Source: Morinoia aosen (taxonomy: Eukaryota > Arthropoda > Malacostraca > Amphipoda > Talitridae). Taken from it: DNA of 64,000 nucleotides. A program made the position numbers and the translations under genes. The DNA is taken from assembly GCA_030386875.1 (NCBI GenBank), contig CM059564.1:47698075-47762074 (forward strand), read 5' to 3'. The notes beneath the pieces were generated by a model. The model was not told the DNA's origin. It ran no database searches and saw only the letters and a program-made list of their open reading frames with translations. Below, in pieces: positions 10,801 to 57,800 of the stretch (the first letter of the stretch is position 1; every line of letters starts with the position of its first letter).

Positions 10801-13800
10801 GAGAGTTTATACCTACCAACATTCACTTTATTGACCACTTTCACCATTTTTTTTCGCAGTACCATTGGTTGAATAACGCCCCAAATTTTTCAATTATTGT
10901 ATGAATTTTCAAATTGATGAGTTCTTTCTCATAAAAACTGTGCCTTTCTATCTCATTAAAGCTAAGATATGGAGCGTTTTTTAGTTTCGTAATTTTTATA
11001 TTTCTCAGAGTATACCATTTTTAAAATATACAGTTGTACACACATAAATTCCGATAAAAACTTGGTTCATTTTCAAAACAAAATGAGTATTGGAAATAAA
11101 CTTCCACTGGTTGAGTTTGAGTTTATTTTGCACAGCCATCCTTGCATGTGAATTTATTTTTATTGCTTCCTAACCTATCATTATTTTTCACCTAATTCTC
11201 ATCAAACTTTAAACGCCACAGTAAATATAACTTTTGAGTCCCTCATTTTACTTTCTTCTCTCAAACATGCGACTGGAACCAAGCAGCTGACTTCCTAACT
11301 GCTGCGACTACGGTAGGAATCATTTCTTCTGGTCCTATAACCGTTCACTAAAGCAATTTTTATGTATTATAGCGTGGAGTTTAATTCACTTACGACCGAA
11401 CGATAGTGAAAAATTTATAATGTTTTGTTTTACAACTGTTTAAAAAAATGCTATAGTTATAAATCCTTTCTTATCATAGCGAAGAAATATTATTCTGTAT
11501 AGCTCAGAATTACTCGTGGTAAAGTAATAAAAAATTTTTCCGTTAAATCCTCTAGCGTTAAGCATGACATCTTCAAAACGATGCTATTTTTGTGGCTTGA
11601 AATATCAGCGTTTAACTTTCGTGTTCATCACAAGTTTTAGCTCGAGTTGCACCTCCGCGTGGCTGATTCGTTCGCCCATCATTGGATGATAGTGCGGCGC
11701 TTCTGCTACCAGATTAAAATAATATCATTCCTCGAATGTATTTTCAAATAATTTTCTCTATGAATACGCTACATAACGGCGTTTTATTATTACTTTATTA
11801 TTCATGAGCTGAAATTTAGAGTTCAGTAAGATTCACCCATTACTAAAAGATAATTTTGATTTTTACATGAAAGTCCATCCGGTAAAATACCCCACAATCT
11901 GGAACAAAACTTTCGGAATGAAAAACATAAGATTAAATCGGGGGCTCATTAACACTTATCCACCGCCTTGGAGAACATAGTGGATGGAACTTACTGTCCC
12001 ACACCGAATCGTTCAGATAGAAAATACAGATGAAGACTTCATAATTTTTTTCGATACCATCGGTTGAAAAACGTGTCCAAATTTTTAAATATTGAACGAA
12101 TGTTCAAAGTAATTAGTTTTTTCTTATAAAAAATGGTCTCTTTCCAACACGTATGAGCTAGGAGATGGAGCGTTTTATAGTTTCACAAGTTTAGCCGAGG
12201 AGTAACTTGGTGGCCATGTTTGCTTCAGGAACACACGTCAACTTGAGGTAAATTTCAACGGGGTCACGAGGGAGCAACTCACTGCCGTGTACGACGACAT
12301 CGCCTACAACGGCTCCGTCGCAGTGCTGGTGTGGGACATCTTCCCTGTCGCAGCGTACGACCTGCGCTGTGCCACCTGGGCAGCTGGTGAGTGTGCCACC
12401 TGGGTGAGTGTGCCATGTGGCAAGCTGGTGAGTGTGTCATGTTTCAAGCTGGTGAGTGTGTCATGTGGCAAGCTGGTGAGTGTGCAATGTGGCAAGCTGG
12501 TGAGTGTGCCATGTTTCAACCTGGTGAGTGTGCCATGTTGCAAGCTGGTGAGTGTGCCCTTTGGCTAGCTTGTGAATGTGCCATCTGGCAAGCTGGTGGG
12601 CGTTCCGTGTGGCAAGCTGGTGAGTGTTGCGTAGAGACCAGAAGATAAAACACAAACGAGTTCAATTACCTTTCCTACTGAATTACCCTTTCAATTTATG
12701 ACTTATGAATAAACAACCGCACGATTGCCATTTGAATTTGGAAAATAACAAGATTATTCATTGTAAAGTATGAAAACTTTGAAAGTACTTCCACGCTCAA
12801 AAATGAAAGTGTGTTGCTCAAGATGTTTCATTTGTTTCTATTGTTAACAATTATCGACCCATCTCCGTACTACCAATTATTAACAAAGTATTCGAAAAGA
12901 TTGTGTATAAAAAGTGTACTCTTATTTTGAACAAAAATCATTTCTTTACGATAAACAATACGGCTTTCGCTCTAAAAAATCAACAACACAGGCTATATTA
13001 AATCATTTAAAATTCCTCTATTCTAATATAGATGAAGGAAAGCCTGTTTTCTCTGTATTTCTTGACTTTCGAAAAGCATTCGATTGTGTGGACCATAAAA
13101 TACTACTCTCGAAACTACACTGTTATGGCATTCGAGGGATTGCCCATGATTGGTTCAGATCATACCTAACAAATCGGAAGCAATACGTTGTCGTTGACGA
13201 CGCAAAATCAGACCCACAGACAATTAGCCATGGAGTTCCACAAGGATCTGTTCTTGGGCCTCTCCTGTTTCTGAATTTTATCAATGATATTGTAAAATCT
13301 ACATCATTCTTCAAATTCATACTTTTTGCCGATGACAGTACTCTTTCTGCGGTCCTTCCGAACCAAAATCCCGCTATGATTGTGGAGAGTATAAATAATG
13401 AACTTCATAAGGTTTCATCGTGGCTCAAAGCTGATAAAATAAGCCTTAATACTGATAAAACAAATTATATTACATTCTCATACAAGAAAAATGTATCTCT
13501 CCCATGCATTAAAATTGGCGAAAGTGAAATCGAAGAAACCAACTCATGTAAGTTTCTGGGCATAATAATAGATAAACATCTGACCTTCAAAGTGCACATC
13601 ACTCATATCAGTTCTAAATTATCAAAATCCATCGGAATCCTAAATAAAGTTAAAAATTTTCTGCCTGAAACAGCTTTACAAATGCTCTACCGAACGCTTA
13701 TTTCTCCATACTTGCAATACGGAATAGAAGCATGGCACGGAACTGATAAAAATAAAACCAACAAAATTTTTACTCTGCAAAAAAAAAACTATCAGAGCGG

Positions 13801-16700
13801 TGAAGAACTTAGAATATAATGCTCACACAAATGATTCTTTCAAAAATTTACAAATACTTAAACTTTCGGATCTCTACAAAATCTCCATTTGTAATTTCAT
13901 TTACAAAACATTAATAAATGATGGCGACAATAGCTTAAGACAATTATTAACTGCGCAAACTGGTCATCACGACCATTTAACCCGAAATAGAAGTAAATTC
14001 ATGCTTCATTATTATTCAAAGGCCCGGTCGCAACACAGTATCCTCTTCGTTGAAACCAAAACTTGGAACTCTATACCTGCAGAGATCCGTGAATGTAATT
14101 CGTACAAAGTATTCAAAAGACATCTTGAGTCTCACTTCCTATCAGAATACTAGTCGTGTAAGATCACCGTGTCAAAATCTTGCCTCCTACATGTAACTAA
14201 TGATAATGTCATAATGTAACTTGCCTTGGGTACTATAACCAATCTTCTGTCTGCTCTTGAATCGTTTTATCGAACATACTGTTAAATATAGCTGATTTGA
14301 ATTATATTGTAAAATACAGCATAAAATATCGAGTTAATTATCTCAATGATCAGACTAATGCGAAACTCGGTTAAGTGAACTAGGTTAAACATTTTCGTAC
14401 ACCCTAGAATAACGTGATGGTAGGATGCCCTAGAAGTCGCTGAACTTGTTCGGGCCCACAGGTAGCTATACTCAAATTTGACCATTGTACTAGACTTAAG
14501 AAAAATTCTACCTCTGTATCACCTGTAGTAAATAATTTGTTTAAATTTTTTAAATTGTTTAAATTGTTGCAGATTCTGAGGTACAAGAGCCCTTATACCC
14601 AGGGTCCGCGGCCTGGAACAGATCACTGTGCGCTATCTACCACCTGCAACAGAAGACGCCGCTCGTCGTGTCTATGGAGATGGTCGTGTCTTTCCTGATT
14701 CTCGTCCACCTCTTCATCGAGTTCAAGTTCCTACACTCTGTGAGTACAAGTCTTATTAACACCCTTGTCACATTATTGTAGTATTCCACAACGTTCGTCG
14801 AGTTCAAGTTCTTATACTCCGTGAGTTAATGACTTAATAGACCTTAATCACATAATTATGAGGTTCCACCTCGTACATGTTCGGTTAAACTGCGATTTCG
14901 ATGCGCTTCTTGATGGTTGCTTTTGCTGACTTTGAATTGTGTTGTGTGTTATGACCAGACCATTCAACCTTTATATTCAGTTTACCACCAATGTTTCAGT
15001 CACGTCATTTGTCGAAAGAACTCACTTTTTACGAGCATATAATACATTGGTGTCGTGATTTGGGCTCTATTGGTCGATGTATTGATGTCCTTTTAGTTAA
15101 ACACTCATCTTCGGGCACTACAGAAAGAACGTTACGTTTATTGAGAGACACAAGTCTATCACGTTGTAGACTACCATCACACCTATCACAGAATTCTTTA
15201 CATGTCAATATTAGGTTTGTTGATAAAACTCAACTCTATCCAAATAATTATCACTGCTATCACAGTACTCTAACTTGTAAATATCACGTTAGTTAATAAA
15301 ACTCAACTCTGTTCAGGCTACCATCACAGCTATCACACAACTGTGACAAGTAGATATCACGTTTGTTAATAAAACTCAACTCTATATAGGCTACCATCAC
15401 AACTATGACAGAACTGTGACAAATAGATATCACGTTCACAAACACTTGGCATGTATCAACAGACATCGCTGGCAGTGTGGGACGTGCACCGAGTGAGCAG
15501 ACTCTGTCTCCGCCTGCCCTTCATGGTTATCCTGCTCTTCGGTGCGAGTCTTTGTGACTTCCAACTTGGCTGCAGAAATGTGAGTGTTGTGTACCTTCTA
15601 CCTTATGGAATTTTCAGTGATCCTTTTTGAGTTTTGCCATTTCCCCCTGCGCTAAGACTGAGATTTATTTTTTTGCGCTCCCATGATTTGGGAGAAATTT
15701 AAATGAGTTAATAATTCGTCCATCAGATCCGTTGTGACCAAATTTTTAGCCTTGAAGTCAAATAAATACAGCTGTCTTTAGCGGGTACTACAGTGAAAAT
15801 ATTATGAAATGTCTACCGAAGTTCCGTTGTAAATGAATAAGTTCATGCCACTCACACCCCGTGGAATGAGTCCCAGACGTTTTGCATATCTTTGCAACGA
15901 AACTCATTTTCGTGTTTCAGACCATCATTTGGCTTCTGGGGGTCGTAGCGGTGCTGCTCAGTTGGATCCACGTGGTGCTGACGCTAAACAAAGTGCCGCG
16001 CTTCTCTGGCTTTATGCCGGTCACCCCCGTCCTTTTACTGCGCTACGTCCTTGCAGTCGTGCCTTTACTTCTCTTTCTGTGGGCCTTCGCCCTCGCTTTC
16101 CATCTCCTGTTCTTGGATGCGTTGCCTTTTGAAACGGTGCCGTACTCGCTCATCAAAACCGTCACCTGGTTGTTGGGAGACCTTGGCTACGACGATACTT
16201 TTAGGAACGATGATTCTCCACTTGCGTATCCAGTCCTTTCTAATATTCTGTTTGTAGTGTTCATCATATGCATTGGCGGTCTAGTGCTCAATTTCATCAT
16301 TGGGCATCCAACTGAAAAGCTCTTTGAGCTCAGGAAAGAAGATGACTTGAACCGTGCGGTTGCGCACTTGCACATCCACCTCATCATCGACGAGTGTGTG
16401 CCAAGCTGGAGACGTCGGTATGCTCTGTCTCATGGAGTGATCACGAACACAACGCGTGCATCTTTGTACGTCAGCTCTGAAATGCTGCAGTCTTATCTGC
16501 AGGGTAAAGAAATACAAACCCGTGACGTTGAAAAACTAGAGGAGGCAGTTACGGATATTCAGAATAAATTGAATTCCATCCTCGAGACTCTCGAAGTTCT
16601 GAATGGCCCGAAGGTCCACAGGCACGACCAGTCTGCCGACACCTGCTCTACCTTCCATCCGCGACCGTATCTTCGTTATCAAAATACGATTGATGCTTGA
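1790..16700 (+). CDS. Gene 1: TRPA-like ankyrin-repeat cation channel, 10 exons
   Basis: Join of 1790-1854, 2600-4319, 5042-5232, 6379-6731, 7354-8020, 8313-8420, 12229-12386, 14573-14739, 15463-15579 and 15921-16700. This gives 1441 codons with no internal stop. Ankyrin repeats span about residues 101-640, a linker and pre-S1 region about 659-999, and six membrane segments follow, with S1 from about 1007 and S6 at 1283-1310. The pore motif GDLGYDDTF starts at 1268. A predicted coiled coil near the C-terminus fits tetramer assembly. TRPA channels are plasma-membrane cation channels that sense heat, irritants or mechanical stimuli; the actual stimulus cannot be read from sequence. Pore and pre-S1 motifs (HPL...L.HKL..WL, GDLGY, YPVLSN) mark the TRPA family. 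Which arthropod subfamily (painless, pyrexia, other) is unresolved. Introns 1, 3, 4, 5 and 9 hold little that I recognise. Confidence 0.88.
1855..2599 (+). other. Gene 1 intron 1 with a short degenerate tandem repeat
   Basis: The intron begins GTCAGA and ends TTTTTCCAG. Between about 1905 and 2045 a motif around GAACAAGAATTCCTTAACTC recurs two to three times with decay. Nothing else is recognisable. Confidence 0.55.
2600..4319 (+). CDS. Gene 1 exon 2: ankyrin-repeat domain
   Basis: This 1720-nt exon starts after TTTTTCCAG and ends at a GTACGTG donor in phase 0. It encodes most of the ankyrin array, with helix motifs TVLHVAVEH, TPLHYMV, SALHLAARE, TPLHFAAQSG, TALMLAAKGG, SLLHLAVTM, TPLHLAARAG, TAIHLAAEMG and HPLHLCAGNG. 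Ankyrin arrays in TRPA channels form the cytosolic N-terminal scaffold. The frame continues 24 nt past the donor to a stop at 4341-4343, so intron retention would give an ankyrin-only product. Confidence 0.9.
4870..5045 (+). repeat. 34-bp minisatellite ending at the exon 3 acceptor
   Basis: About five units of roughly 34 bp carry the core TGGGTGCATGATTGCCTC followed by GTCCAG or GTCAG. The AG dinucleotides fall at about 4905, 4940, 4974, 5008 and 5041, spacing 33-35. The last is the real acceptor of exon 3, and the first exon bases (GTGGGG) continue the unit. The array therefore copies the 3' splice site. Confidence 0.8.
5042..5232 (+). CDS. Gene 1 exon 3: last ankyrin repeat
   Basis: The exon begins GTGGGGGAGAAT after CAG at 5041 and ends before GTGAGTC in phase 2 (191 nt). 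It encodes 63 residues including NGQYPVDRAF and EEFAVRLHRYMKKCL. It aligns with exon 3 of gene 2 (GNYPVDLAF...VRMHRYFKASL) and of gene 3 (GRYPVDEAY...VRLHGYFKECL). Confidence 0.88.
5233..6378 (+). other. Gene 1 intron 3 with a possible poison exon
   Basis: The intron is AT-rich with no gene or transposon that I recognise. A 55-nt segment at 6126-6180 is framed by a pyrimidine tract plus CACAG and by GTGAGT. In the exon 3 reading phase it reaches a TGA after four codons. Confidence 0.45.
6379..6731 (+). CDS. Gene 1 exon 4: linker after the ankyrin array
   Basis: The exon follows TTTCCACAG and ends before GTGAGC in phase 1 (353 nt). It encodes AMIESSWCKAVLDGRYC, a Pro/Asn-rich stretch, then FALLIRTHSRLACEAMDKH and YTPFEYIYYCTEG. 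The LDKH...YTPFE(Y/F)IYY pattern is shared with genes 2 and 3 and resembles the TRPA segment between ankyrin repeats and membrane domain. Confidence 0.88.
7354..8020 (+). CDS. Gene 1 exon 5: low-complexity linker and pre-S1 segment
   Basis: The exon follows GTGCACAG and ends before GTATGT in phase 2 (667 nt). It encodes 222 residues, about twice the length in genes 2 and 3. A Ser/Ala/Thr/Gly/Pro-rich region contains about eight GTNPGAA-type heptads (DNA 7501-7680). It ends with SWCKDHPLQEAVRGGHTQVL, the conserved TRPA pre-S1 motif. The low-complexity part is probably disordered and cytosolic. Confidence 0.87.
7501..7680 (+). repeat. 21-bp in-frame coding minisatellite in gene 1 exon 5
   Basis: About eight copies of a 21-bp unit encode GTNPGAA variants. 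The first three to four copies are nearly identical and later ones diverge (GTNPSVA, GANPGTT, SANPGTA), suggesting recent expansion from the 5' side. Confidence 0.9.
8313..8420 (+). CDS. Gene 1 exon 6: S1 membrane segment
   Basis: This 108-nt exon lies between CTTCTTCAG and GTGAGTT and is in phase 2 on both sides. It encodes SWLLKKFRYARWVLYPYVFM followed by DVLTAAFVYWLQALLW, a hydrophobic S1 helix. Exon 6 of gene 2 has the same length and that of gene 3 is one codon shorter. Confidence 0.88.
8421..12228 (+). other. Gene 1 intron 6, long, with internal direct repeats
   Basis: This 3.8-kb intron contains two related segments in direct orientation, 10853-10998 and 12050-12190. They share TACCATTGGTTGAA and ATATGGAGCGTTTT-type stretches; the second lies just upstream of the exon 7 acceptor. 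TGACACAC/GTGTGTC repeats occur at about 9408-9470. Minus-strand open frames near 9.9-10.6 kb have no recognisable domain. Confidence 0.5.
12229..12386 (+). CDS. Gene 1 exon 7: S1-S2 extracellular loop
   Basis: The 158-nt exon starts after TTGCTTCAG and ends at CAGCTG before GTGAGT, phase 1. It encodes NTRQLEVNFNGVTREQL...YNGSVAV...DLRCATWAA. YNGSV is a possible N-glycosylation site. The Cys before ATW is conserved in gene 3 (HCATW) and gene 2 (NCSSW) and could pair with the Cys in exon 8. Confidence 0.87.
12381..12635 (+). repeat. 24-bp minisatellite made of copies of the exon 7 5' splice site
   Basis: The unit CAAGCTGGTGAGTGTGCCAT plus four bases repeats about eleven times, starting at the real exon 7 donor. 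Nine perfect GTGAGT donors are present at 12387, 12404, 12428 and then mostly every 24 bp, plus two decayed ones. The spacing from the first to the second donor is 17 bp, so all later donors would put exon 8 out of frame. Confidence 0.9.
12830..14153 (+). mobile_element. 5'-truncated non-LTR retrotransposon, reverse transcriptase fragment
   Basis: The segment in gene 1 intron 7, in sense orientation, encodes a LINE-type reverse transcriptase. Motifs in order: NYRPISVLP (from about 12848), LDFRKAFDCVDH, GVPQGSVLGPLL, LFADDSTLS (catalytic FADD), then LGIIIDKHLTF and SPYLQYGIEAWHG. The FADD box and overall pattern suit a Jockey/CR1-like clade. It lacks the endonuclease part and has at least two frameshifts, one near 12910 and one in the A-run near 13785, after which the frame resumes to a stop at 14151-14153. 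It is a dead copy. Confidence 0.85.
14573..14739 (+). CDS. Gene 1 exon 8: loop end and S2
   Basis: The 167-nt exon begins after TTGTTGCAG and ends CTACACTCT before GTGAGT, phase 0. It encodes AAWNRSLCAIYHLQQ, with a conserved glycosylation sequon NRS and Cys, then S2 (VSMEMVVSFLILVHLFIEF). Confidence 0.88.
14720..14850 (+). repeat. Tandem duplication of the exon 8 end and its donor
   Basis: The exon 8 end (TCGAGTTCAAGTTCCTACAC, then GTGAGT at 14740) is repeated about 81 bp downstream as TCGAGTTCAAGTTCTTATAC with another GTGAGT at 14821. A TAG acceptor at 14779-14781 precedes the second copy, making 14782-14820 a 39-nt open, phase 0-0 candidate micro-exon encoding YSTTFVEFKFLYS. Confidence 0.75.
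15170..15445 (+). repeat. About 73-bp tandem repeat in gene 1 intron 8
   Basis: Three to four imperfect units with the core TTAATAAAACTCAACTCT and CTACCATCACA recur with a period near 73 bp. The array ends shortly before exon 9. Confidence 0.75.
15463..15579 (+). CDS. Gene 1 exon 9: S3
   Basis: The 117-nt phase 0-0 exon lies between ATCAACAG and GTGAGTG. It encodes VWDVHRVSRLCLRLPFMVIL and a hydrophobic S3 ending CDFQLGCRN. The HRVSR and CDF.LG motifs recur in gene 3 (HRVSR, CDFALG) and gene 2 (HRLSR, CDFALG). Confidence 0.88.
15921..16700 (+). CDS. Gene 1 exon 10: S4-S6, pore and C-tail
   Basis: The last exon follows CGTGTTTCAG and runs to TGA at 16698-16700 (259 residues). It encodes S4, the LNKVPRFSGFMPVTP S4-S5 linker, S5, a pore loop with GDLGYDDTF, and S6 (YPVLSNILFVVFIICIGGLV...LNFIIG). 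The C-terminal tail has HLHIHLIIDECVP and a heptad-rich stretch near the end (DVEKLEEAVTDIQNKLNSIL), a likely coiled coil. Confidence 0.92.
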   Translation, partial: TIIWLLGVVAVLLSWIHVVLTLNKVPRFSGFMPVTPVLLLRYVLAVVPLLLFLWAFALAFHLLFLDALPFETVPYSLIKTVTWLLGDLGYDDTFRNDDSPLAYPVLSNILFVVFIICIGGLVLNFIIGHPTEKLFELRKEDDLNRAVAHLHIHLIIDECVPSWRRRYALSHGVITNTTRASLYVSSEMLQSYLQGKEIQTRDVEKLEEAVTDIQNKLNSILETLEVLNGPKVHRHDQSADTCSTFHPRPYLRYQNTIDA

Positions 16701-20279: not shown

Positions 20280-20350
20280 ATGGAGGACTACGTCGCCATC
20301 CCCATGGAAGACATGGCTTCCCCAAGTTGTGCCCCAGACAGCGGGGACGG
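20280..20350 (+). CDS. Gene 2 exon 1: N-terminus
   Basis: ATG at 20280 follows a CTCAG acceptor at 20263 and 16 nt of leader. The 71-nt coding part (MEDYVAIPMEDMASPS...) ends before GTGAGTG in phase 2, joining exactly to exon 2 as a Gly codon. Length and phase agree with genes 1 and 3. Confidence 0.72.
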
Positions 20351-23300
20351 GTGAGTGACATTGCGTTATTTTGTGCCATGTTCGTTTGGCATAATTGATT
20401 TAAATGCAGTTTTCATGTCCCGCACGCTTCGTCTGAACGTAATCGAATAACCTCTTGCTTCCATGTTCGGGAGAACTTTTTAGTTTCCATAATAATTTTA
20501 ACGTTTTTGATGGTGCGTGTACTAGAGTTTCCAGTAGTTTCCAGTTGTCACGTTCTTCTTTATTACATTTCTCTAACTTTATTCAACATGACCGGTGTCT
20601 GTGACCTATGAACGTTCACATGATAGTTTTTCCAAGAATTCAGCGTGTTCATAAAAAACACGTTTGAAGGGAGTAACTGTTACGAAGACAAGCTTAGTTA
20701 TTGATACTCAGCTTCGTTGAGACTCGTACGCCCAGTACTCCTATCACTTCAGTGTACGCTTGTGCGCAGGTCGGCAGAAGTTGAAGTGAGTGAACTCGAA
20801 TCTGCCATTCAACGAGCGGACTCGGACCAACTCAACAAAATACTGGCGACACATCCAAATCCCAACGAAGAGATAAGGACGAAAAAGCTGCTCCACAAAC
20901 TAGTGTCTTCAGAGAGGCAAAAAATTACTCAAATCCTGGAAGCTCTAATAACAGTAGTGGATGACGAAACTCTTTTTGAACGCAACAGTGAAGGTAGAAC
21001 TGTTCTTCACGAAGCTGTAGGGTACGACCGATGTCCTTTGTTATTTATTCGAAAGAACCCTGCGACTCTCGATCAAATAGATTTTGACGGCAATACTCCA
21101 GTGAATTACATGACGATGAATGGCAGAAACAAAATCTCTGAAAAGGTCAAGAAATTAATTTCGCCTGAAATAATTAATAAAAAAAACAAAGAATCCCTTT
21201 CGGCAATCCACCTGGCAGCAAGGGAACGTAATCCCGAAATCTTGAAGATTTTCATAGACCTTGGAGGCGATGTGAAGGCCCAAACCGAAGAGCAGTTCAC
21301 TCCTCTTCATATCGCAGCGCAGAGCGGGTCCGTGCAGTGCGTGCAGCATCTTTTGAATGCTGTCACCACTGCCCCCACAGATACTGCTCATCTGGAACAG
21401 TCCTGGAACAGTACCGACCTGGAACAGACCAGGACCAATACCGATCTGGAACAGACCAGGACCAATACCGATCTGGAACAGACCAGGTCCAGTACTAACC
21501 TGGGACAGACCAGGACCAATACCGACCTGGAACAGTCCAGGGCCAATGCCGACCTGGAACAGTACTTGAACATGCGCACAGATGAGGGCTTCACTGCCCT
21601 CATGCTCGCTGCTAAAGAGGGCCATCCCACCACATGCAGGGAGCTGTTGCAAACTGACGTCAGTCTCGCGTTAGAGAACGGAACCACAGCCCTACATCTG
21701 GCTGCCAAGAAAGGTTCTCTGTGTGCGATGAAGTGCTTAGTGGACAGTGTCCTAGAGGCAGACTGCTCTGGCCAAGCCAAAAAAGACAAACTGCCTTTTC
21801 ATGATGAGACTTTCCTCTCCTCGTGTCTTGAGGCTGCGATAAAAGGAAAAGACCAAGAATGTTTTGAGTATCTGCTCACCGTAGCAGAAGAAAAGCCTTT
21901 GACCAGCCGTGCTATCAAGAAACTGGTAGATCTGGGGGCAGAAAGGTCACTCAAGTGTGTACAAAAAATGACCGAACATCCTGAGTTTCACGCAGGTTTA
22001 ACGAATTACATCGATAAAAAAGGTAACAGCCTTCTCCACATTGCAATTATGCAGAGAAGTTATGTCACTGCTAAGTCTTTGTTTGCAATTGTTGGACTGA
22101 AGAAATTTAACAAAAATAAAGACGGAGACTCTGTTCTGCACTTGCTAGCACGTCACCCCGACAAGCGCTTCACTTTCGGCTCCGAAGACTTTAATGAGTT
22201 CATTAAACAGCTGTCGTTTGGGTCACGTGAGCTCGTGAACTCCCGCAACAAAGAAGGCAACACTCCTCTCCATCTGGCATGTCGGCATGGCAATGCTGGT
22301 CTCGTTAAGGAGCTGCTGCACAAAGAACCGAACTTGACTTTGACGGCAAAATGTGGCAAGACTGCGCTGCACTTCGCGGCTGAGTATGGCCAAGTACAAT
22401 GCTTGAAGATGCTCCTCCAAATCGTCAAGACAAATGAGATGGAAAAATATTTTGAAATGACACCCCGCCTATTGCACCTGGCAGTCAGTAAAGGACATGT
22501 GGAGTGTTGTCTTCTGCTGCTGGACAAGGCTTCGGTAAGTTATGCCAGATATCAACATTTGAAACTTTTTTGTGATCTGTCTTGATCTCTGAATATTCAG
22601 CTTGATTTCTGTCGTTTACTTTGCTGAACATTTCCATCCAGGCCAATAAATTTCTGATCAAACTGTTTTCCTTTGATAGATGACCATGTATGAGCTGTAT
22701 AAAACTCTCGACGTCGGGGGTTGTTAGTTCAGATTAGTGAGCCAAATGGAGTACAAAAACTACTGAGCAGCCCTGCTGATTCAACAATTTCAAAAATGAA
22801 ATCTGTTGCTGGACTATTTCAAAGTTCATCTACTCTATAAAAATTCGAGCTACACAAACAGTTACAGATGACTACCACATGATGAAAACAAGTCCGCTGT
22901 CTCATTGCTTTACTGAAAATGCGATCAAGCCTCATTGCGTTACTCTACAACGAAATACAAAGCAAGAAAGCACCCCATTAGGTACGCTATACGAGCACCT
23001 TTAAAAGCCTGAAATATTCGATTTATTTTCTTTGCGTGTGAACGAATGTTGAACATAACTTTTCCAACAGGCGGCAGGGAGAACTGAAGCAGTTCTAAAG
23101 ACCGGCGACAAAAAAGGCAATTACCCAGTAGACCTGGCGTTCGAAAACAAGCACTCGCAACTCTTCCGTGTGCTGTTGTCTAAGATGGAGCCTGGGGAGC
23201 AAGATGAAGAGTTCTTTGTGCGGATGCACCGATATTTCAAAGCAAGCCTCAAGAACGTCCTTAAAAATAGGTGAGCATTTCAAAAATAACAACGTAGAAT

Positions 23301-26300
23301 TGTTTTTTATGACTTTTCATGGATATGTTACATAGCATTTATGAACGCATAGTTCACCTCATTAAACACAGTAAAAATTTTCAATCATTCATCTATCTTT
23401 AACAATGATTGTGATGTTTAACCAAGACGTTGTCTTCCTTCCATACAAGAATGACTGACACTCAAGTAATGGTTGAAACGCAGGCGAGGAGGGTTTTCTA
23501 AGTTCTTTCACTTTCTTCTGGGCCGTTAAAATAACCAGTTTTTAAGTGAAATCAATTTCCATTATTTTTTATAATTTCATTTTAATTTATTGCTAGAAAT
23601 GAAGGATTTTCCATAATTTCTCAGTATTCTTCTTAATTTAAGCTCTTTTTCTCGTACGAGAATCACAACTTTTCTCTCTGCGAGACCGTGTAGGTCTTGA
23701 ACGCATTTATCTCACTTATCTTTCTTGCCATTTGAACAACAATTCCACAGCCTAGAAGTAATCAACTGTAAGAATAGTGGCTGTGTCGCATCTACTAGGT
23801 TAGAATCATTCAGAAAACTCCGTAACAAATCCTGTTTGTATTGTATCATGCATAGTAATTTAAATCAAAATAATCACTTAGATCTCATTGATAATTATTT
23901 CGCTTATACTACAAGAATTCTCGTAATATTAACATAATCCATACTACATTAACATCCATAATATTTATTTTAAAAAACATTATCACAGCCATGGATCTCA
24001 AAATCTCATCTTTCAACACTTCCATCGTTAGTTCATGGAATCACTAGAGCTGTAAAATATGCTATCGCTATAGTGATCTCGATAAGAGTGTCCGCAAAAA
24101 GTAAGAGAAAATAACTACTCCATTAAAGGCATGTCTAAACTTTCTCACTGATGAAACGTTTTCCAAAGGGACCACAAGGAACACCACCAAAAGGAGAAAG
24201 AATTCCACGAAGCGATCTTAGAAGCCGTGGTCCAAAGTTCCTGGTGCTGCGTGGCTCTGGATGGACGTTTCTGCGACAATATTCGAATTCCGCTTGAAAA
24301 CAGAGGTGGAGAAGATGATCAAGGTAACCCAGAACACAAATTGAAGCCTTGCGATTCATTTGCGTTGCTGATCGACGTCAAACCGGACCTGGCGAGCAGG
24401 GCTCTGGACAAACACGTCCACTTGGACGGAACTGATGAAGTCCACAACTACACTCCGTTCGAGTTCATCTACTACTGTTCTGAAGGTACTACATTTCAAA
24501 TAATTTTGAGGTCCTTTTTTCGGTGGTAATTCCAGCAAAGTAACAGTTAAGAAACCGAAAGCTTGGACGTGCTTACGATTAACGGTTAGAAACATTGCAT
24601 GCATGTCGAAGATATAAGTCTTTAAATTGCGGTCATACGAACGTATAGTTCATTACTTGTATTGCTGAGAACTATTTTTAATTCGTCCTTTCACATGCGT
24701 TAACGAAAATTACAACACATTATGTGCGCTAAATGACAAAATGTTATTCTAGGGACTAAAGAACGACAACATAAGCTTGTGAAAGATAAGTACAAAGATT
24801 ATATAATCACGAAAAAATTAGGAAGGAGTGGTGCTTAAAACAATAACAGCGAAATCAGTTATCAATCCATGAAAAACGTTTATTTCAGTGTGATTTTAAA
24901 TGACCTCGAAAATCGCACCTAGCTCTCTGCGTTATTGAAAGTGGAACGAGTTATTAACTAAACCTGGTCCAGTTTATCGTTTATCGCTTATTTAAACCTT
25001 AACATTAAAAGACGTACACCATCTCTGTGCAGCGATAAAGATTAGTCAGACACAAGTGAGTATAATTGATAAGACTCACTGTACATATATCTGAAATCAT
25101 TTCTGAACATTTGAAAGTAAAACATCAATGAATGTAGGCACAGAGACGAGCAGATTTTTTTCACTCCACCGGTGAGGAACTACCCAGTCTAACTTTTTTC
25201 ACCGCCTGCATGTATGTTTTTCGCCGCCAAAGCGATTTAAGCGATTAAATCGCTTAGGCGGTAAAAAACATGCATGCAGGTGGCGAAAAAGTTAAACTGG
25301 GTTAAATTTTGAGACTTTGATTGCAAGGAACTTGTAACAAGTGTAAGAAAATGAGCCTTAAAGAATTGCAAGTAATTGGATTTAGCCATGTTGATTTCAA
25401 AAGTAGACTGAATGATTTGTGTTTCATAATAGCCTCAACTATTCTTCTCTAACCGACATCAAGTGTTCTAGTTCAAGTTGGATGAAACATCATTCAATTA
25501 TTATGAACACTGAATTTTTCTCCATCACTAACAACAGCGGAGGTTGAATGTAATACGAGATGACGCAACTTCATTCAACCAACCAAGAGTTTATTGAACG
25601 GTGACTGACTTTTTCGCTGTCCTTCGATTTAATTCAGGACGTTCTTAATGTGCTTATGCTTGTCAAATACTTCCAATTTTATCTAGATAAGGAAGTTGTC
25701 TCCCCGTTCGTCAAAAACTCAACCAAGCCAGAAGCGACTGCTGCTGAAACCGCCCAATACAGCTCTCAGAGCAACACCGAACTTGAAAATACTCAAACCA
25801 ATTCTTCCCCGAGCCAACAACCTGCATGCAAGTCAGCCCAGCAAGCAAGCCCTCCTGAGTTTTCGGTTCGTGCCGAAGCCAAAGAATTCGAGGGAACATC
25901 GTGGTACGAACACCACCCTCTCCAGAAGGCCGCTAAAGGCCAGCATGGTCAAATTCTGCGGCACAAACTTACTCAGTAAGATGATGTGCACTTTGTCTGC
26001 AGGTTAAAAGCGGATTGATATACATTGAGATATAAGTGTTTTCACAAGGATGAAATTCATAAAATGTTAGTAATATGCCAATCACTTCCCAGATTAGCAT
26101 ATTCAACTGAACATCTAGGTGTTGAAATAATTCCAAAAACAGTACTGGCAGTTATAATTTTACTGAGACCGTTTGACCTCACTCTGTTCATGGACGCATG
26201 AGAGAATCAAGGTTACACTACATGACAATAATGCACAAATTTGTAACAGAACGTGGCTGCTGCGGAAGCTGCAGTACGCGAGCTGGGTGCTCTACCCCTA

Positions 26301-29300
26301 CTTCGCTCTGGACCTCTTCACGGCGGGGATGGCTGTCCTCATGCAAACCCTCTTCTGGTACAGAATGTCTTTCGCATCCTTTTGCACAGGCATCGGGAAC
26401 CACGTTCCCTAGGCCAATGCACCAGTTACCTGCGCAGACATGTTTGACTTTTCTCATGACTGGATCTCACAATTATTCTTGAAATACTGAGCGAATTGAG
26501 TTGGTTCTTAGTTTCATTACATTGCCGAAATGCTTTCTGATGGGAGAATAACGGCTTAAGTGAATAACTGCATAACATCTGTCATGCAGACCAACATCTA
26601 TTGTAACTGTTGAGTATTATGTTCCAGCGAAATACGGTGCATTGCTGATATCATAAGCCATATGCACCCGGGTAGAATTTTGCGTCTCGGTTGGATTACA
26701 GCGTAAAAGCCGCTTCATACCCACAATTACGCTCGTGAGTGAACAATTGCTCTAAACATTGCGAGAATATTAAATATATTTGTTTCGCAGGAACACGCAC
26801 CACCTGCAGGTGGCGTTCAGTGGCACCACGCGGCAGCAGGTGGCGACCTGGTACGGCACTGACGTCTCCTACAGCAGCATCATCGAAGACCTCGTCCAAG
26901 AAGTCCGTTCTATAGCCGCGTCGGATGCAAACTGCTCCAGCTGGGGTGTTGGTGAGTGCTGTGTGGGGAGCTGGTGTTATGCCTCAATATTTGAGAGCAT
27001 GTCTTAGGTGTGGCGACAACTAGCTATGATTCTGTCGTATGACTGCGCAAACCGCTATTGCTCTTCTTGCGGAGGCTTAGGGAACGTTTCATTGGGCGGG
27101 TAATATTTTAAAGGGCGGGAAATGCTTCATAGGGCAGAATATGTTTTATACGGCGGTAAATCTTTCGTAGGATGGGAAATGCTTCATATGACGGAAAATC
27201 TTTCGTATAATAGCTCAAGTTGTCGGCTGGAACTGATCAAATGTCGGTAACACACCTCGTAGATGCTTTATTTATAGAAAAGCATATTTAACACCATAGA
27301 AAAAAGAGTACATGTACAATATTAGAATCTGGTACATTTGTCATGATTCATGGCTTACACTTTTTTATCATAACTCATTCCTACCTACATATAAATTGTT
27401 ATTTGATCATTTTTTGTTAATGCTCTTCGTAATTCCGGTCTAACACGGCCCAATAAACCTTTGTGTTTAATATGAATCTGTCTAGAGAAAGCAAAGCAAA
27501 TACAAAAAGTATTGTTGCTAACGAATACTTTTCTAGCTAATTCTTGCTACATGTATACGAATACGAAAATTTGTTACCAACAGATGCAAAATGGATTTGT
27601 TGCTAACCATAGTCCACGCTGTATCTTTTTCTTTAAATAATGACAATTGTTCATTAATTGCTGACAGTTTAGGTTAAAATTCAAAATCTAATTGTTTTTC
27701 TGTTCTTTAGCGTATGTTATAGAGAATTTTCTTTCCGAATCTAACGATATGCTTCACTTCCTTATACGAGTATGTGTGTCCGTTCGTCTGCTACAGCTTC
27801 CAAAAAGCCATTCCCTTCCGTCATCACACGGCCAGGGGACGAGTTGGTCAGGCTCTCCTGAAAACTTGAACTTGTTGACATTTGAAATGCTACTTCTTCT
27901 ACAATTCTAGAGATACGGAAATGGTAGACAAACCAATCGATAGGGCTTAAAAATAGCTAGATATTGTTAGATGAATATTTTAAAAACATGTTTAGTTTAA
28001 AAACTATAACAGAAATAATATGTCAAATTAAAAAAAAACATTTTTTAGATTCTTAAAATTCAACAAATCAAATTATCGAAAATCCATAACTGTATTTCTC
28101 TACAAAATACATTTAGCTATCTAGAAAACACAATGTTGGTTCTATGACATTAAAACTTTAGGAGGAGAGTGGTTTTTCGTAATACCCATTTTTTAGATTT
28201 TTTGAAAATAACCTATTTTTTCAAGAAGATACAAAAAATACTCAAAACAAAAAAGAATCTTTGGATCATTTTATATCTGTGAGGAAAATTTCAGAGAAAT
28301 CTGTTTGAAAATGAAGGACTTTTTTTAGCAAAACTTTCCCTATAAATAATGAATAAAGATAAATTAACCATTGGTTATGAGAAAATGCAATGGTTTCGAT
28401 CAACGTAGCTGATTATTAATAATTATTGATATTCTTCAAACGTATATTTATTATAATGAAAGAATATTGAATTTATTTACTGATAACGACTTGTTAATTG
28501 CAACATAATCAGTTAATTAATAGTAATATGATTTCTTTATAGTAACATGTTTCGATTACCAGGGACCATTAGCAACAGCTGCGGTTTTTAATGGTTCTGA
28601 AAATATGTTTATCTTATTCAGACCTACATACATCTGACAACGAACCATTACAAATTGGCTCAGCTGCCTGCCTGGAATAGAACCGTGTGTGCCATCTATC
28701 ATCTGGAAGAAAAATCTTCGTACGTCATCGCCATGGAAGTTTTCGTACTGTTCCTGGTGCTTCTCCACGTGGCTCTCGAACTCGTATTCCTTAGGCATGT
28801 AAGTATATTTAAATGCACAGAGTAGTTTTTTTATGCCTGGGAATTTTTAATGAATTTTAGTTCTCAACTTTCAGTGAAATTGATGTAAACTTTAAGGAAT
28901 AGAAATTATTTATAGGGTGTAAAAATTTCCTCAACCAATTAAATTAAGTAATGTACTACGAACTATATTACGTAGCATTTGTTTTTGTACCGGTATTAGT
29001 AATATTGAGGACCTAGAGATTATCTAAGGGATTACCGCCTGCTTCACTCCACTTCGCTCCCCAACACACTATATGCTGAAGTTAACTGTCAGAGCTCGAC
29101 AAGAAAAGATTATTTCTGTGTTTTGGTGTGCACTACTTCCCCAACTTTGACATCTCATAGAGTAATTTCCCTTTCATTGAATATCAGAGATAAACTTTCA
29201 GTACAAGAAAGACGCAGGTCCTCCCCTATCTCAACAGGGAATGTTGGTCACACTTATGGCTTCGACCTGCATGTCTCAAACAAGGCAGCTACCTCCCTCC

Positions 29301-31648
29301 TGAGCGATCAAAAATCGGCTGCAGAAGAGATTTGAACATCGAAATGTCGTTGTAAAGCCATGCTCACAGAAAGCATTAAAAAACTCTTTTTTATGGAAAA
29401 TTTGCGCAATGAAACGATATCACCCTTGGATATGGCAATCCACGCGGGGATTCTAGCATCTACTAAAGTTTTCGCAAGGGAGACTACTAACAGGGATAAT
29501 AGGACGATGTCGAAAATTGTGAATAATGTTAGCCAAGAATATTACAAGAAAAGACTTCGATTTCTCGAAGTTCCCGACAAATATCCTTGAGAATTCTACA
29601 TTAGTGTGTCACAATGAACTGTCTTGCTTTGTTCATACTGGTATTAAAATTTGCTCTCCAAGATTTCACTATTTTGACATGAACGTGGCGCTTAAATTCT
29701 TCGCAAAGTATACTCCCCAATTAGTTTAGTCGACCGTGCAAGAACACAACATTATTAACTTCATATCTACCAACTACGATACATTCCATTCTAGCTTTTC
29801 ACCCGAACTTCTAAAATTTTGGTCGTCCCTTGCAAAGGCTATACATGGGCGGCTAAAATCATAGAAGCTCCGGAGATAAAGTATGTCTGAGACGAAGAAA
29901 AGTGGACAACCCTCCAGATACTGCATCATTTGCTCTTTTCCAGACGTCGCAACACTTCCATGACCTTCACCGCCTCAGCAGAGTGTACATTAGGATTCCT
30001 TCGCTGGTCACTTTGCTCTTCGGCTTCAGACTCTGTGACTTCGCCTTGGGTTGCAGAGGGGTAAGTATTATAAATTACATATGCTTACTTGATCAGACCG
30101 TTCTGAAAGCTGTAATGCTTCACAATTCCAGCGAAGGGACCCACCGGTGGTTATTGAGAGGACTTTCATAATGCTGCTGACAGACTTGCGGTCACTAATT
30201 AAAGTTTTATAAATTTATAAAGAAAGTTAAATGAATGCACGATCTAGTTAATGTTTGCTATTTTTAAAATTACTCACTACTATTGAATGCAAACTTGAAT
30301 TGAATATTTAACTTTTTCTAACTTCAGTTTAACCAAACACAAAAAACGTGTTAAGACTTGCTAACGCAGAGCGCCTTATAGTTCACGCATATTCCTGACG
30401 GTGTTTTGTAATGATTGTTTTCCAGATTGAATTTTCCATAATGAAAGCTGATTGGAGCAAAAAACATAATAAAAGCAATGTTGTTTCAAGGAAATACGTA
30501 AAATCTAGTAATTGAGGCATGGTTTATGACAATTTCAAGTGCAGACTCATTAACTGCGTTGTGAGGGCTCCCAAATTCTACAGATCAGTTCGAGATTTGA
30601 ACGACGTTGTTCCAATGTGCTATTTTTAATTCGTAAACAAGCAAAATATGAAAACTTCAAAAGTGACATTTATAAAAGTAATGAATACGAATAATAAATT
30701 AGAGGAACCCTTAACTGTTTACTTCTGTACGACATAAGAATGAGTCGATATTTAAGTTTTATTCGAATTTTTTCAGACTCAAAGTACTTTTTCTGGACAA
30801 GGGGGAATTTTATTACTCTGCCGAATGTCGCCAAGGGTCTAGAGTCACTGTAATTCTACTAATAAGTATATAACTATTGAAAGATACACCATTCCTTATT
30901 AGTGAAAGGCATTCATATCTGAATGCATTATATTCATTATTTGATAACGAATTTTGCTTTCCAGATCATCATTTGGCAAGTGGAGGTGGTGGCGGTGCTG
31001 CTGGTATGTATCCACGTGGTGATGATGCTCAACAAAATGCCCCGCTTCTCTGGATTCATGCCCGTCACTCCAAGACTGTTGGGAAGCTATGTATTGGCTA
31101 TTTTACCCCTTATTCTATTCTTATTAGCATTTTCCTTGTCATTCCATTTTCTTCTAATGGACAACGTAGCGTTTGCAACCATACCATATTCGCTAATCAA
31201 GACTCTCACCCTGATGCTCGGCGATCTGGGCTACAATGACACTTTCGTTAACAATGGCAATTCAGTGGCTTACCCGTTGCTGTCGAACTTCTTGTTCGTA
31301 GTTTTCATCATTGGCATAGGTGGTCTCGCACTAAACTTTATTGTCGGAAAGCCCACTGAAAAGCTCTTCGAACTTCGGAAAGAAGACGACTTGAATCGCA
31401 ACCTCGCCCACCTCCACATTCACCTCCTCATAGACCAGTGCGTTCCCACACAGCGCCGTCGCTACGCCAGGTCTCAATGCAGCGCTTCGAAGGAACAGCT
31501 GTTGTCGCTCTTCGTTAGCTCTGACATGCTCGCATCCAACGCGCAGAAGGAGACAGAGAGCGCTGAGAAACTAGCCGCCCAAGTGTCTGAGATGAGGCTG
31601 GAAATAAAAACGGTTTTAGATAAGCTGAATGAAAGCAGTTCTCAGTGA
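20280..31648 (+). CDS. Gene 2: TRPA-like channel with a frameshift in exon 8 (possible pseudogene)
   Basis: Join of 20280-20350, 20770-22534, 23071-23270, 24169-24485, 25687-25975, 26250-26357, 26791-26951, 28622-28798, 29944-30060 and 30965-31648. All splice phases match gene 1, but the total is 3889 nt, one more than a multiple of three. A TGCC duplication at 28665-28672 causes the break. Read as is, translation stops at TAG 28678-28680 after 989 codons, keeping ankyrin repeats and S1 only. Ignoring the extra 4 bases the gene would encode 1294 residues with an intact pore (GDLGYNDTF) and S6. The other nine exons show no other lesion. Introns 1, 2, 3, 5, 6, 8 and 9 hold nothing I recognise. 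Confidence 0.82.
20770..22534 (+). CDS. Gene 2 exon 2: ankyrin-repeat domain with a 9-residue repeat insert
   Basis: The exon starts after TGTGCGCAG and ends before GTAAGT in phase 0 (1765 nt). Ankyrin motifs include TVLHEAVG, SAIHLAARE, TPLHIAAQSG, TALMLAAKEG, TALHLAAKKG, SLLHIAIM, SVLHLLARH, TPLHLACRHG and TALHFAAEYG. About 50 extra residues interrupt the array before YLNMRTDEG, made of TRTNTDLEQ-type units that genes 1 and 3 lack. Confidence 0.9.
21391..21563 (+). repeat. 27-bp in-frame coding minisatellite in gene 2 exon 2
   Basis: About six units of 27 bp encode variants of TRTNTDLEQ. The insert lies in a loop between two ankyrin repeats and keeps the frame open. The corresponding loop is short in gene 1 (LLEKIPHLQDQIEYLNMQ) and intermediate in gene 3. 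Confidence 0.9.
23071..23270 (+). CDS. Gene 2 exon 3: last ankyrin repeat
   Basis: The 200-nt exon lies between TTCCAACAG and GTGAGC, ending in phase 2. It encodes AAGRTEAVLKTGDKKGNYPV, DLAF, then FRVLLSKMEPGEQDEEFFVR, matching exon 3 of its neighbours. Confidence 0.88.
24169..24485 (+). CDS. Gene 2 exon 4: linker
   Basis: The exon begins after TTTTCCAAAG and ends before GTACTA in phase 1 (317 nt). It encodes EFHEAILEAVVQSSWCCVAL...CDSFALLIDVKPDLASRALD and YTPFEFIYYCSEG. The acceptor has a weak pyrimidine tract but phase and homology support it. Confidence 0.83.
25182..25302. mobile_element. Hairpin element, candidate MITE, in gene 2 intron 4
   Basis: The 121-bp segment is an imperfect inverted repeat over its full length: ACCCAGTCTAACTTTTT at the left matches AAAGTTAAACTGGGT at the right, with inner arms around GCCTGCATGTATGTTTTT. 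The tip is AT-rich (GCGATTTAAGCGATTAAATC). No clear target duplication is visible. Confidence 0.6.
25687..25975 (+). CDS. Gene 2 exon 5: linker and pre-S1 segment
   Basis: The exon begins after TTTTATCTAG and ends before GTAAGA, phase 2 (289 nt). It encodes KEVVSPFVKNSTKPEATAAE, a Ser/Thr/Asn/Gln-rich stretch, then SWYEHHPLQKAAKGQHGQIL. It lacks the heptad repeats of gene 1. Confidence 0.85.
26250..26357 (+). CDS. Gene 2 exon 6: S1 membrane segment
   Basis: The 108-nt exon lies between TTTGTAACAG and GTACAG. It encodes TWLLRKLQYASWVLYPYFAL and DLFTAGMAVLMQTLFW, closely matching gene 1 S1. Confidence 0.88.
26791..26951 (+). CDS. Gene 2 exon 7: S1-S2 extracellular loop
   Basis: The 161-nt exon lies between GTTTCGCAG and GTGAGTG, ending in phase 1. 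It encodes NTHHLQVAFSGTTRQQVATW...ASDANCSSWGV. NCS is a possible glycosylation site and the Cys aligns with the conserved loop cysteine. Confidence 0.87.
27087..27212 (+). repeat. Degenerate short tandem repeat in gene 2 intron 7
   Basis: About six imperfect units around GGGCGGGAAATGCTTCATA recur every 20-25 bp. They lie about 140 bp after the exon 7 donor. Confidence 0.6.
27893..28330 (+). repeat. Dispersed repeat in gene 2 intron 7, related to the array at 62.7-63.5 kb
   Basis: The segment shares AATCGATAGGGCTTAAAAA-like, AATTATCGAAAATCCA, GTTGGTTCTATGAC-like and GAAAATTTCAGAGAAATCT stretches, in the same order, with 62.9-63.5 kb. It looks like an old copy of an interspersed repeat family of unknown class. 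Confidence 0.55.
28622..28798 (+). pseudogene. Gene 2 exon 8: loop end and S2, frameshifted
   Basis: The exon lies between TATCTTATTCAG and GTAAGT. In the incoming phase it reads LHTSDNEPLQIGSAACLE then TAG (28678-28680). In the other genes GSAAWNRS or GTAAWNRS stands at this place. The DNA GCTGCCTGCCTGG has TGCC twice (28665-28672); with one copy the conserved AAWNRT frame would continue. The remainder, in the shifted frame, encodes WNRTVCAIYHLEEKS and an intact S2 (AMEVFVLFLVLLHVALEL) and ends in phase 0 as in gene 1. Confidence 0.8.
29944..30060 (+). CDS. Gene 2 exon 9: S3
   Basis: The 117-nt phase 0-0 exon lies between CTCTTTTCCAG and GTAAGT. It encodes TSQHFHDLHRLSRVYIRIPS then LVTLLFGFRLCDFALGCRG, aligning residue for residue with gene 1 exon 9. 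It lies downstream of the exon 8 frameshift. Confidence 0.87.
30965..31648 (+). CDS. Gene 2 exon 10: S4-S6, pore and C-tail
   Basis: The exon follows TTTGCTTTCCAG and ends at TGA 31646-31648 (227 residues). It encodes S4, LNKMPRFSGFMPVTP, S5, a pore with GDLGYNDTF, S6 (YPLLSNFLFVVFIIGIGGLA...LNFIVG), HLHIHLLIDQCVP and a short coiled-coil-like tail (LAAQVSEMRLEIKTVLDKL). No lesion is seen, so either loss of function is recent or the frameshift is an error. Confidence 0.9.
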   Translation: MIIWQVEVVAVLLVCIHVVMMLNKMPRFSGFMPVTPRLLGSYVLAILPLILFLLAFSLSFHFLLMDNVAFATIPYSLIKTLTLMLGDLGYNDTFVNNGNSVAYPLLSNFLFVVFIIGIGGLALNFIVGKPTEKLFELRKEDDLNRNLAHLHIHLLIDQCVPTQRRRYARSQCSASKEQLLSLFVSSDMLASNAQKETESAEKLAAQVSEMRLEIKTVLDKLNESSSQ

Positions 31649-54800: not shown

Positions 54801-57800
54801 ACGTCCGCGTCATTTCTGAATCCGACAAGCATTGTGCGACTTGGGGCAGCAGTGAGTGCTTTGAAAAAGCGGTGTAGACAGGGTTCAAAGAAACTTGGAT
54901 TGTTTAAACAAACAGTACACTTTTTGGGGGTGCATTTATTCGATTTTATTAGGTTTCACTGTTTTTTATAAGGTTGTATTTTTTTGCGTAAGAGATTTCT
55001 AAAATCTTCTCATAAGTAATTTTTTTAATGCATACAACAATGATTCGTGTGTGCGGTGGGAACATAACTTAAGCTACTCCAGTCAAGTCCAATCAAAAGC
55101 AGTAGCTACCAACCTAACAGGAGTATGATCTGAAAACTTATACATTTCTGATTTTCAGGCTATCTCAGTCTAGCTGTCAATGTCGTCAGTGTAACATGAT
55201 ACTGCGGGCTTGGCTTCTGCATCAGCTTTTAGGTCTGCTATTTTCATATCCACAATGTAAGATAGCAGGGTGTGCACCTACCCTATCGTGTTAGGCGTAT
55301 TGGCTTCGTGTCTGCAAGAGGTGATGACGCTTGGATTGAAAGGCAGTAAGTTGTATTCCACAGTTCATAAGTGCGTGTGAGTGCGAGTGTTAGCTGATCA
55401 GTTTCTTCTTCGGGTCTTTAAAATTCCTATTACTAACTAATTATAATTAAGTAACTCATTGGATCTGTATTTTATGTACTTTGACTATCAAAGTTTTATG
55501 GCCAAAGACCTGCATCTAAATAACCCGTAATTGATGTGTTCCGTTGCCTAGATCATATACTGTTCGTGATTAATTAATACACTAGCAATGGCATTAGGTT
55601 GTAGCAAGGGGCGCAATAAAGTCATGTAACTGTAGCACGTATAAGGAGACACAACTAAAGTTAGTTGGGAATTTTTTGGTAACAGTATAAGCAACAAGAT
55701 AGAGTGCGAAATAGTTTAGAAAAATGTAGAGAAAAAGGCGGAACTAACTGCAAAGCAGGAAAAACGCAAAATGCAAAACAGCGAGCTTAAGCCCAGTTAT
55801 CCAAGCGACTCAGCAATGCCCGATGTTATTGACAACAGGTAACCCCTAATTTCCGTTTCTTCTGCATTAGTACCAGCGAACTCAATTGCACCACCACCAG
55901 TAAAATGGAGTAGGACTTTTGTGTTCTTTTGCACTTCTCAAGAAGACGCAGAAAAATAGATGTTCAACTGGAAAAAAAAATTTAGTATAAATAATCAATT
56001 GAATGTAACAGAAAATAAAAAATTTCAAAAGTTTTGTTCCGTGATACGACCTGGACAAATACCACCAAACCATAACCGCCAGTTGGCATTGTCTCCGGCA
56101 ATGTTTGGTATAAATTTGATGGAGGGAAAGCTCAAGTGCCCCTTAAAATATTCAAACATTTGAGGCCAAATGTCGATCTCTAAAATGATGCAATTAAGAC
56201 CTACGAGTGTTAGCAGAGACTTCCGCATGATTGTACAAATACAAACACAAATATGGTACAAGTTGTGTTGTACGACCCATACTAAGTAATGAAGGTTCAA
56301 ATTAGATTAAATATATCAAGTTCGAAAATGGAGCCAATAAAAAAAATAAACCCAGCATGGTGCATTTATTATAGTTTTGTACACCCATATGTAACTGTAA
56401 ATTAAAAAAAAACTACTACTCGTGTTTTATTTAATTGGATTTTAGTGTTTTTTGATAGGATTTTTTAACGCCAGCCTTGGGTCTACTGGGTCGACCAATA
56501 TAGTGATGGGTTGTAGCTCTATTTTTGTCTATTTTAAGTGTTGTGGTTTTGTAGTTTGTGTTGAAACATACAAGCGAATGCCGTTACTGGACTTACTGAA
56601 TTTGAATTATCCATGTTTTGAAGATTTCGAAAAAAAATGGGACATCTTCAAATTCAAAATGAGAATTTTTAATCAATGGTACAATTTGTTTCGTTAACAT
56701 CTCCTGAAAAAGGGCTTCTAAGCTAAAATTCTTCGTGCTATTCTTCATTTATGGTCATTCCAGACAACAGTTCTGATCACGAACCTGTGGAAGAAGGAAC
56801 GGCTGCCTGGAACCGATCTTTGTGCGCGATATTCCACCTCGAAAAGGAATCATCTCTCGTCATCAGCTCAGAAATAGCCGTTGCAGCACTGATCTTATTG
56901 CACGTTCTGGCTGAGGTTTTCTTGACTCGTGTGAGTACATCGCGCCAACATGATCTGTAGGTTTGCATGCTAGATACGGAAGTTTAATTTTATTTCATTG
57001 CGTCGGCGCTTAATTGTGTTTTCTGCTTCAGAGTTAGCAGTTCTCAGTTAGAACATAATTACTCCGTACTACTCTATTTGGTGTAACTTTAGAGATGTAG
57101 GCTACGCAGAACCAAGATTTGGACTTCAAAAGTTCAATAGAACAATTTACTCGCTATCCTTGTGTAAGGCTGTATATATTTTTGACAGTCTTGCTGGAAG
57201 GCAGACCTTTTTTATATAGAATGAGAAATAGGTGTCTTGAGGAAAAGGAAATTCCTTTTCCCTTTGAAATTCATGCAATATTATAAGACTCACACAGCGA
57301 CTACACTCTCCTAGTCAAGAAAATATAGCAGCCTCACTTGTATAGATATAGCAACTTGTTTCATTCGAATGAAACAAGTTTTGAAATTAAATTTTTGTTC
57401 ATTAGGGCAAAACGTTTTATGGATTACTGATACACCACAGAGGTAATTAACCTTATATGATCCTCACAATTCTTCTCTGCACCTCAAAGTTTGAATACTG
57501 TTGAAACATACCAAGTGTTTGTTGCAAAAATAACGGATGGTGTAAAAAAGAAATAGGAAAAAAGAATGAAAAATAGAAAGAAAACAAAAATAAAGGAAGA
57601 GTAGAGGTATCGAGCCATGATTTATCACACACAATATATTAAAAAACACTTTTAAATGTATTGACGCAATATATTTCGAGATAATTTGAGAATATTGGAT
57701 ACCAACCATCATTTCTGGCCTAATTTTATGAAACCATCATAATGTCGCTGTTCATTTTCGCCAGTTTTTTACTCTATCCCCTTCCAACTGAATAGTTCAA

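Follow-up and report, generated by a model that had tools for sequence, protein, structure and literature searches.

The window analysed here is a 64,000-nucleotide stretch of the Morinoia aosen genome (C9:47698075-47762074), to which positions given without a contig refer. The organism's own genome, 1.99 Gb (about 2.0 Gb) in 29 contigs, was searched as well; it contains long TTAGG arrays, as would fit an arthropod, a 30-base array query giving 15,492 exact, overlapping matches. Three genes lie in tandem in the window and have ankyrin repeats and a channel domain. The ankyrin repeats are many and N-terminal (Ank_2, E = 1.4e-61, on the ORF containing exon 2 of gene 2). When exon 9 of gene 2 was compared with PDB, it matched TRPA1 chains (best E = 1.1e-11), as expected of a TRPA1-related six-helix channel domain; the nine matched sequences comprise eight named TRPA1 and a fusion. 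No Pfam family matched this exon at a threshold of 0.001, there was no NCBIfam match, and exon 9 of gene 1 scored 21.1 against the Pfam family Ion_trans, below the cut-off of 25. Judged by homology, gene 2, taken as an unbroken gene, is a predicted TRPA-type cation-channel gene of a sensory ion-channel family. In gene 1, a reverse transcriptase stretch (12911-13819; RVT_1, E = 1.1e-26) lies in the intron that separates exons 7 and 8.

We modelled gene 2 with nine exons on the forward strand. Exon 1 (20280-20350) carries the ATG start (MEDYVAIPMEDMAS) and is similar in two relatives, a gene on C9 termed 2B and a copy on C21 at 51.0 Mb. Exon 2 (20770-22534) encodes ankyrin repeats and includes an in-frame minisatellite (21392-21562) with 6.3 copies of a 27-base, nine-residue unit within the ankyrin region. 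Exons 3 (23071-23270), 4 (24169-24485) and 5 (25687-25975) precede exon 6 (26250-26357), which encodes the S1 helix; helices were named by eye. Exon 7 (26791-26951) ends in phase 1 at the donor TTG/GTGAGT, and its end (GTTG/GTGAGT) forms a tandem pair of donors four bases apart, 26948/26952. Exon 8 (28622-28798) covers the S1-S2 loop and S2, and exon 9 (30965-31648) is open and runs from S3 to the C-terminus. Genes 1 and 3 share the phases of exons 7, 8 and 9 and have GT-AG sites. A segment at 23745-23807, conserved with the C21 copy, was discarded as exon 3 in favour of the one given above; it is tRNA-like in appearance, and a search of 23600-23950 with ARAGORN found no tRNA.

The break lies in exon 8, where TGCC occurs twice in tandem on the forward strand (TGCCTGCC, 28665-28672), just as a preliminary description of this DNA had stated. 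Read on in the frame of exons 1-7, exon 8 gives DLHTSDNEPLQIGSAACLE (LQIGSAACLE) and then meets a premature TAG at 28678-28680, 118 bases upstream of the exon end. The other frame reads WNRTVCAIYHLEEKSS... from 28673 onwards, which is the S2 segment of the family, and exon 9 is likewise put out of frame with exons 1-7. The contrast that had been drawn between GSAACLE-stop in gene 2 and its neighbors is also confirmed, with fitting phases: gene 1 reads GSAAWNRS in its exon 8 (14573-14739) and gene 3 reads GTAAWNRS (56764-56930). The predicted gene 2 product is 989 residues long, with ankyrin repeats and S1 and without a pore, in line with the truncation proposed earlier. The remaining eight exons of gene 2 are all open and all eight introns have GT-AG ends, so the claim that the gene is otherwise intact was correct.

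Tandem 4-mers are common (382 positions in the window), and it is therefore the comparison with other copies that makes the duplication meaningful. A protein search of the genome recovered at least 27 copies of exon 8 including the window's own, that is, at least 26 others. The copy at C21:51862 was dropped because the 5' part of the exon is missing. The site is covered in the other 25 (19 close relatives and six more distant ones), and none of them has the four additional bases: CTGCCTGG stands at the site in 21 of the 25, and the other four differ from it by substitutions. The extra TGCC does break the frame, as had been claimed, and a derived frame-breaking change absent from relatives (25/25) is what a pseudogene or loss-of-function allele would present. 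This comparison shows the duplication to be a derived state that, of all copies found, only gene 2 carries. Exon 8 measures 177 bases in gene 2 and 173 in both 2B and the C21:51.0 Mb copy. Within its first 31 bases (28622-28652), exon 8 of gene 2 differs from 2B at 12 positions and from the C21:51.0 Mb counterpart at nine, compared with nine and 12, respectively, of the 126 positions after the break; change is thus locally enriched immediately before the duplication.

Gene 2B is the closest relative of gene 2 that we found and lies about 118 kb away on the same contig (ATG at C9 position 47834759, compared with 47718354 for gene 2). It has the same nine exons and is open over 1345 residues. 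Exon lengths agree between the two genes except in exons 2 and 8. Exon 2 of 2B is longer by 270 bases, corresponding to ten in-frame 27-base minisatellite units, and the difference in exon 8 is the four extra bases; no other frame-changing difference between gene 2 and 2B was found. Over the whole gene, the two are separated by dS 0.146 and dN 0.066, and the C21:51.0 Mb copy is at dS 0.30-0.31 from either. Intron 7 of 2B (C9, about 47.84 Mb) contains a long minisatellite array of short units, successive matches being about 19 bases apart, and in the C21:51.0 Mb copy the final bases of exon 6, together with its donor, are repeated in tandem with about 42 bases per unit.

We next consider the age of the lesion. 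Over the 269 codons that follow the break, gene 2 has 7 private single-base changes that replace a residue and 17 that are silent, whereas neutral drift would be expected to give 2.81 replacements to one silent change (P = 6e-6). This test rests on 24 changes, takes the C21:51.0 Mb copy, itself broken, as the outgroup, and omits, on the gene 2 branch, one codon with a multi-base replacement. The corresponding replacement and silent counts are 14 and 7 for 2B and 17 and 27 for the C21 copy. Since the private changes downstream are mostly silent, the lesion appears to be young. A likelihood bound limits it to at most 0.19-0.25 of the branch if the earlier constraint is assumed to have been between 0.15 and 0.45, and a looser count from exon 9 only (N 6.5, S 12.5), with an effective dN/dS of up to 0.49, extends the limit to about a third of the branch. 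The polarisation of the gene 2 changes is uncertain, because an exon-9 tree rooted on gene 1 places 2B with the C21 copies (support 0.99), whereas whole-CDS distances place gene 2 with 2B. Moreover, over the whole gene, gene 2 is no more constrained than 2B (private changes S 41.5 and N 52.5 versus S 40.5 and N 56.5). These counts suggest that the half of gene 2 now lost was well conserved until recently. The downstream constraint fits a young lesion, and it fits equally an assembly error or a gene that is rescued and still working.

Could the chromosome really be without the extra four bases, with gene 2 intact and the consensus in error? Strong constraint downstream of the break and the lack of any other frame-changing lesion are what an intact gene would show, and the assembly offers a single consensus: among 21 DNA matches, only the window itself is 100% identical. 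On the other hand, a clean tandem duplication of four bases is a typical real mutation, whereas long-read errors usually fall in homopolymers (the sequencing method used here may differ). Furthermore, there is no such break in the 4038 coding bases of 2B, nor in the resolved exons of gene 1 (4, 6, 7, 8 and 9) and gene 3 (4-9); for exon 5 of gene 1, no candidate was found within the range tried. We therefore regard an assembly error as unlikely. The choice offered in the preliminary description, namely that the loss is recent, polymorphic or an assembly error, stands up.

Splicing might in principle compensate for the shift. Rescue through the donor requires exon 7 to end in phase 0, with exon 8 then read in its open frame to give a channel with an altered S1-S2 loop. 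Exon 8 is indeed open from its first base in the alternative frame, and joining at 26948 leaves it open to the end. Seven phase-0 GT sites precede the first in-frame stop. With a donor matrix not trained on this organism, which applies to all donor scores given here, 26810 and 26840 (CAG/GTGGCG) score 4.6, 26903 1.3, 26963 1.2 and 26948 -1.1, compared with 8.6 for the normal donor at 26952. The score of 26948 equals the median of all GT dinucleotides in the window, but those of 26810 and 26840 exceed the scores of three real donors of gene 2 (4.2, 4.3 and 2.8). Weak in-exon GT sites near 26948 and 26963 had been put forward as able to restore the phase. The first is in exon 7 and is weak, as stated; the second lies outside the exon, which its use would lengthen by 11 bases. 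The idea of a possible rescue stands, but the better phase-0 donors at 26810 and 26840 had been missed.

Several other routes were examined. Every AG in 28300-28700 was tried as an alternative acceptor of exon 8 with the phase-1 donor, and none restores the channel frame, which speaks against a rescue from that side; an exon 8 starting at 28681 is the only one that stays open, but its frame is not that of the channel. Skipping of exon 8 does not help, since it would join the phase-1 end of exon 7 to the phase-0 start of exon 9. The phase-0 donor at 27008 has a score of 6.5, but an in-frame stop precedes it. The pair 26948/26952 belongs to the GTNNGT class of donors four bases apart, for which minor alternative use in transcriptomes is described in the available part of PMC4267661; the same part also treats such use as mainly noise. 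Both this pair and the CAGGTGGCG sites are also present in the unbroken 2B and in the C21:51.0 Mb copy, and thus they are not a response to the lesion. Downstream constraint would fit a rescued gene, but taking these points together we consider a leaky rescue, by a phase-0 donor within exon 7 or close to it, rather improbable. Splice rescue of gene 2 is possible and would probably be minor. More specifically, the pair 26948/26952 might drop four bases from a share of the messages and so offset the shift in exon 8, leaving small amounts of a channel whose S1-S2 loop is rewritten. We give this version very little credence; if true, it would be a case of splicing noise buffering a coding frameshift.

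The first 989 codons are open, and the shortened protein of ankyrin repeats and S1 could conceivably have been retained as a useful product, for example as a dampener of partner channels. However, the stop precedes the last exon junction by those 118 bases, a position at which message decay is to be considered; a stop so far before the last exon junction often triggers it. In addition, a truncated role leaves the constraint downstream of the stop unexplained, and the truncating duplication is found in none of the 25 comparable copies. Of all the alternatives, this one seems to us the hardest to credit.

Beyond the window, we observed at least 20 dispersed, intron-bearing copies related to gene 2, most of them on C21 (48.76-53.19 Mb, and also 12.5 and 18.7 Mb), with others on C22 (0.22-7.08 Mb), C13, C16, C23 and C8. 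Among 20 dispersed copies examined (on C21, C22, C13 and C23), 11 have a full-length, open exon 9, and in the other nine the exon is broken or unmatched over its length; this count omits three fragmentary places (C16, C8 and C21:50838). The C21:51.0 Mb copy, the only dispersed one read over all exons, is shifted in exons 2 and 3. Five of 17 dispersed exon-3 matches, that copy among them, exceed the query stretch by one base. The exon-3 match of 2B is also one base longer (193 versus 192), yet exon 3 of 2B has 200 bases like that of gene 2 and is open; therefore, match length alone does not prove a frameshift. An in-frame stop is reported for exon 9 of C9:47819, and another, in exon 9 of C9:47874, was set aside since it appears to be an acceptor TAG. 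From the copies compared, the family can be described as large and, in parts, decaying.

Our preferred explanation, which we hold to be likely, is that gene 2 recently lost its full-length product through a four-base slippage in exon 8, within a duplicating TRPA family in which the loss was tolerated. A slip in DNA copying would have added four bases inside the exon; CTGCCTGG already has a four-base period over seven bases, which would favor slippage as the origin. Ribosomes reaching the site would be shifted in frame and terminate after 989 residues, ahead of S2, so that no pore would be made, and the message would probably be degraded or yield a pore-less stub. The loss may have been tolerated because close relatives are present, including the open sister copy 2B. 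The allele may have become fixed, or perhaps it is a recent loss-of-function allele that is still segregating. Intron 7 of gene 2 harbors an old interspersed repeat (27659-28341) that is unaligned in 2B and the C21:51.0 Mb copy and whose nearest other genomic copy is 75% identical; there is no sign linking it to the duplication as a cause.

If this explanation is right, the locus would provide a clear and roughly datable case in which one sensory channel gene of a duplicating family is lost and an open sister is available for comparison. Should the allele be segregating, the contribution of a single TRPA copy could be tested in a natural setting; if not, the locus is a caution for annotation, as the break may be hidden in an automatic gene model. 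Most likely, we are dealing with ordinary birth-and-death evolution, in the form of a recent gene inactivation in a large family. Sensory receptor families with recent pseudogenes evolve in this way and likewise comprise tandem and dispersed duplicates, some open and some broken, and the available text of PMC11526382 presents the loss of one copy among many as a textbook, tolerated outcome of duplication. Gene 2 does not differ in kind from those cases, except that here the lesion seems young and the gene encodes a putative TRPA channel, not an odorant or taste receptor. With the arthropod TRPA channels (TRPA1, painless, pyrexia, water witch, HsTRPA and TRPA5) it shares the order of ankyrin repeats followed by a channel domain. 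Tandem TRPA5 copies have been reported in Rhodnius (PMC10993193) and eight painless copies in Tenebrio (PMC11152070); compared with the insect copy counts in the available portions of these reports, the at least 26 further exon-8 copies found here represent a larger number.
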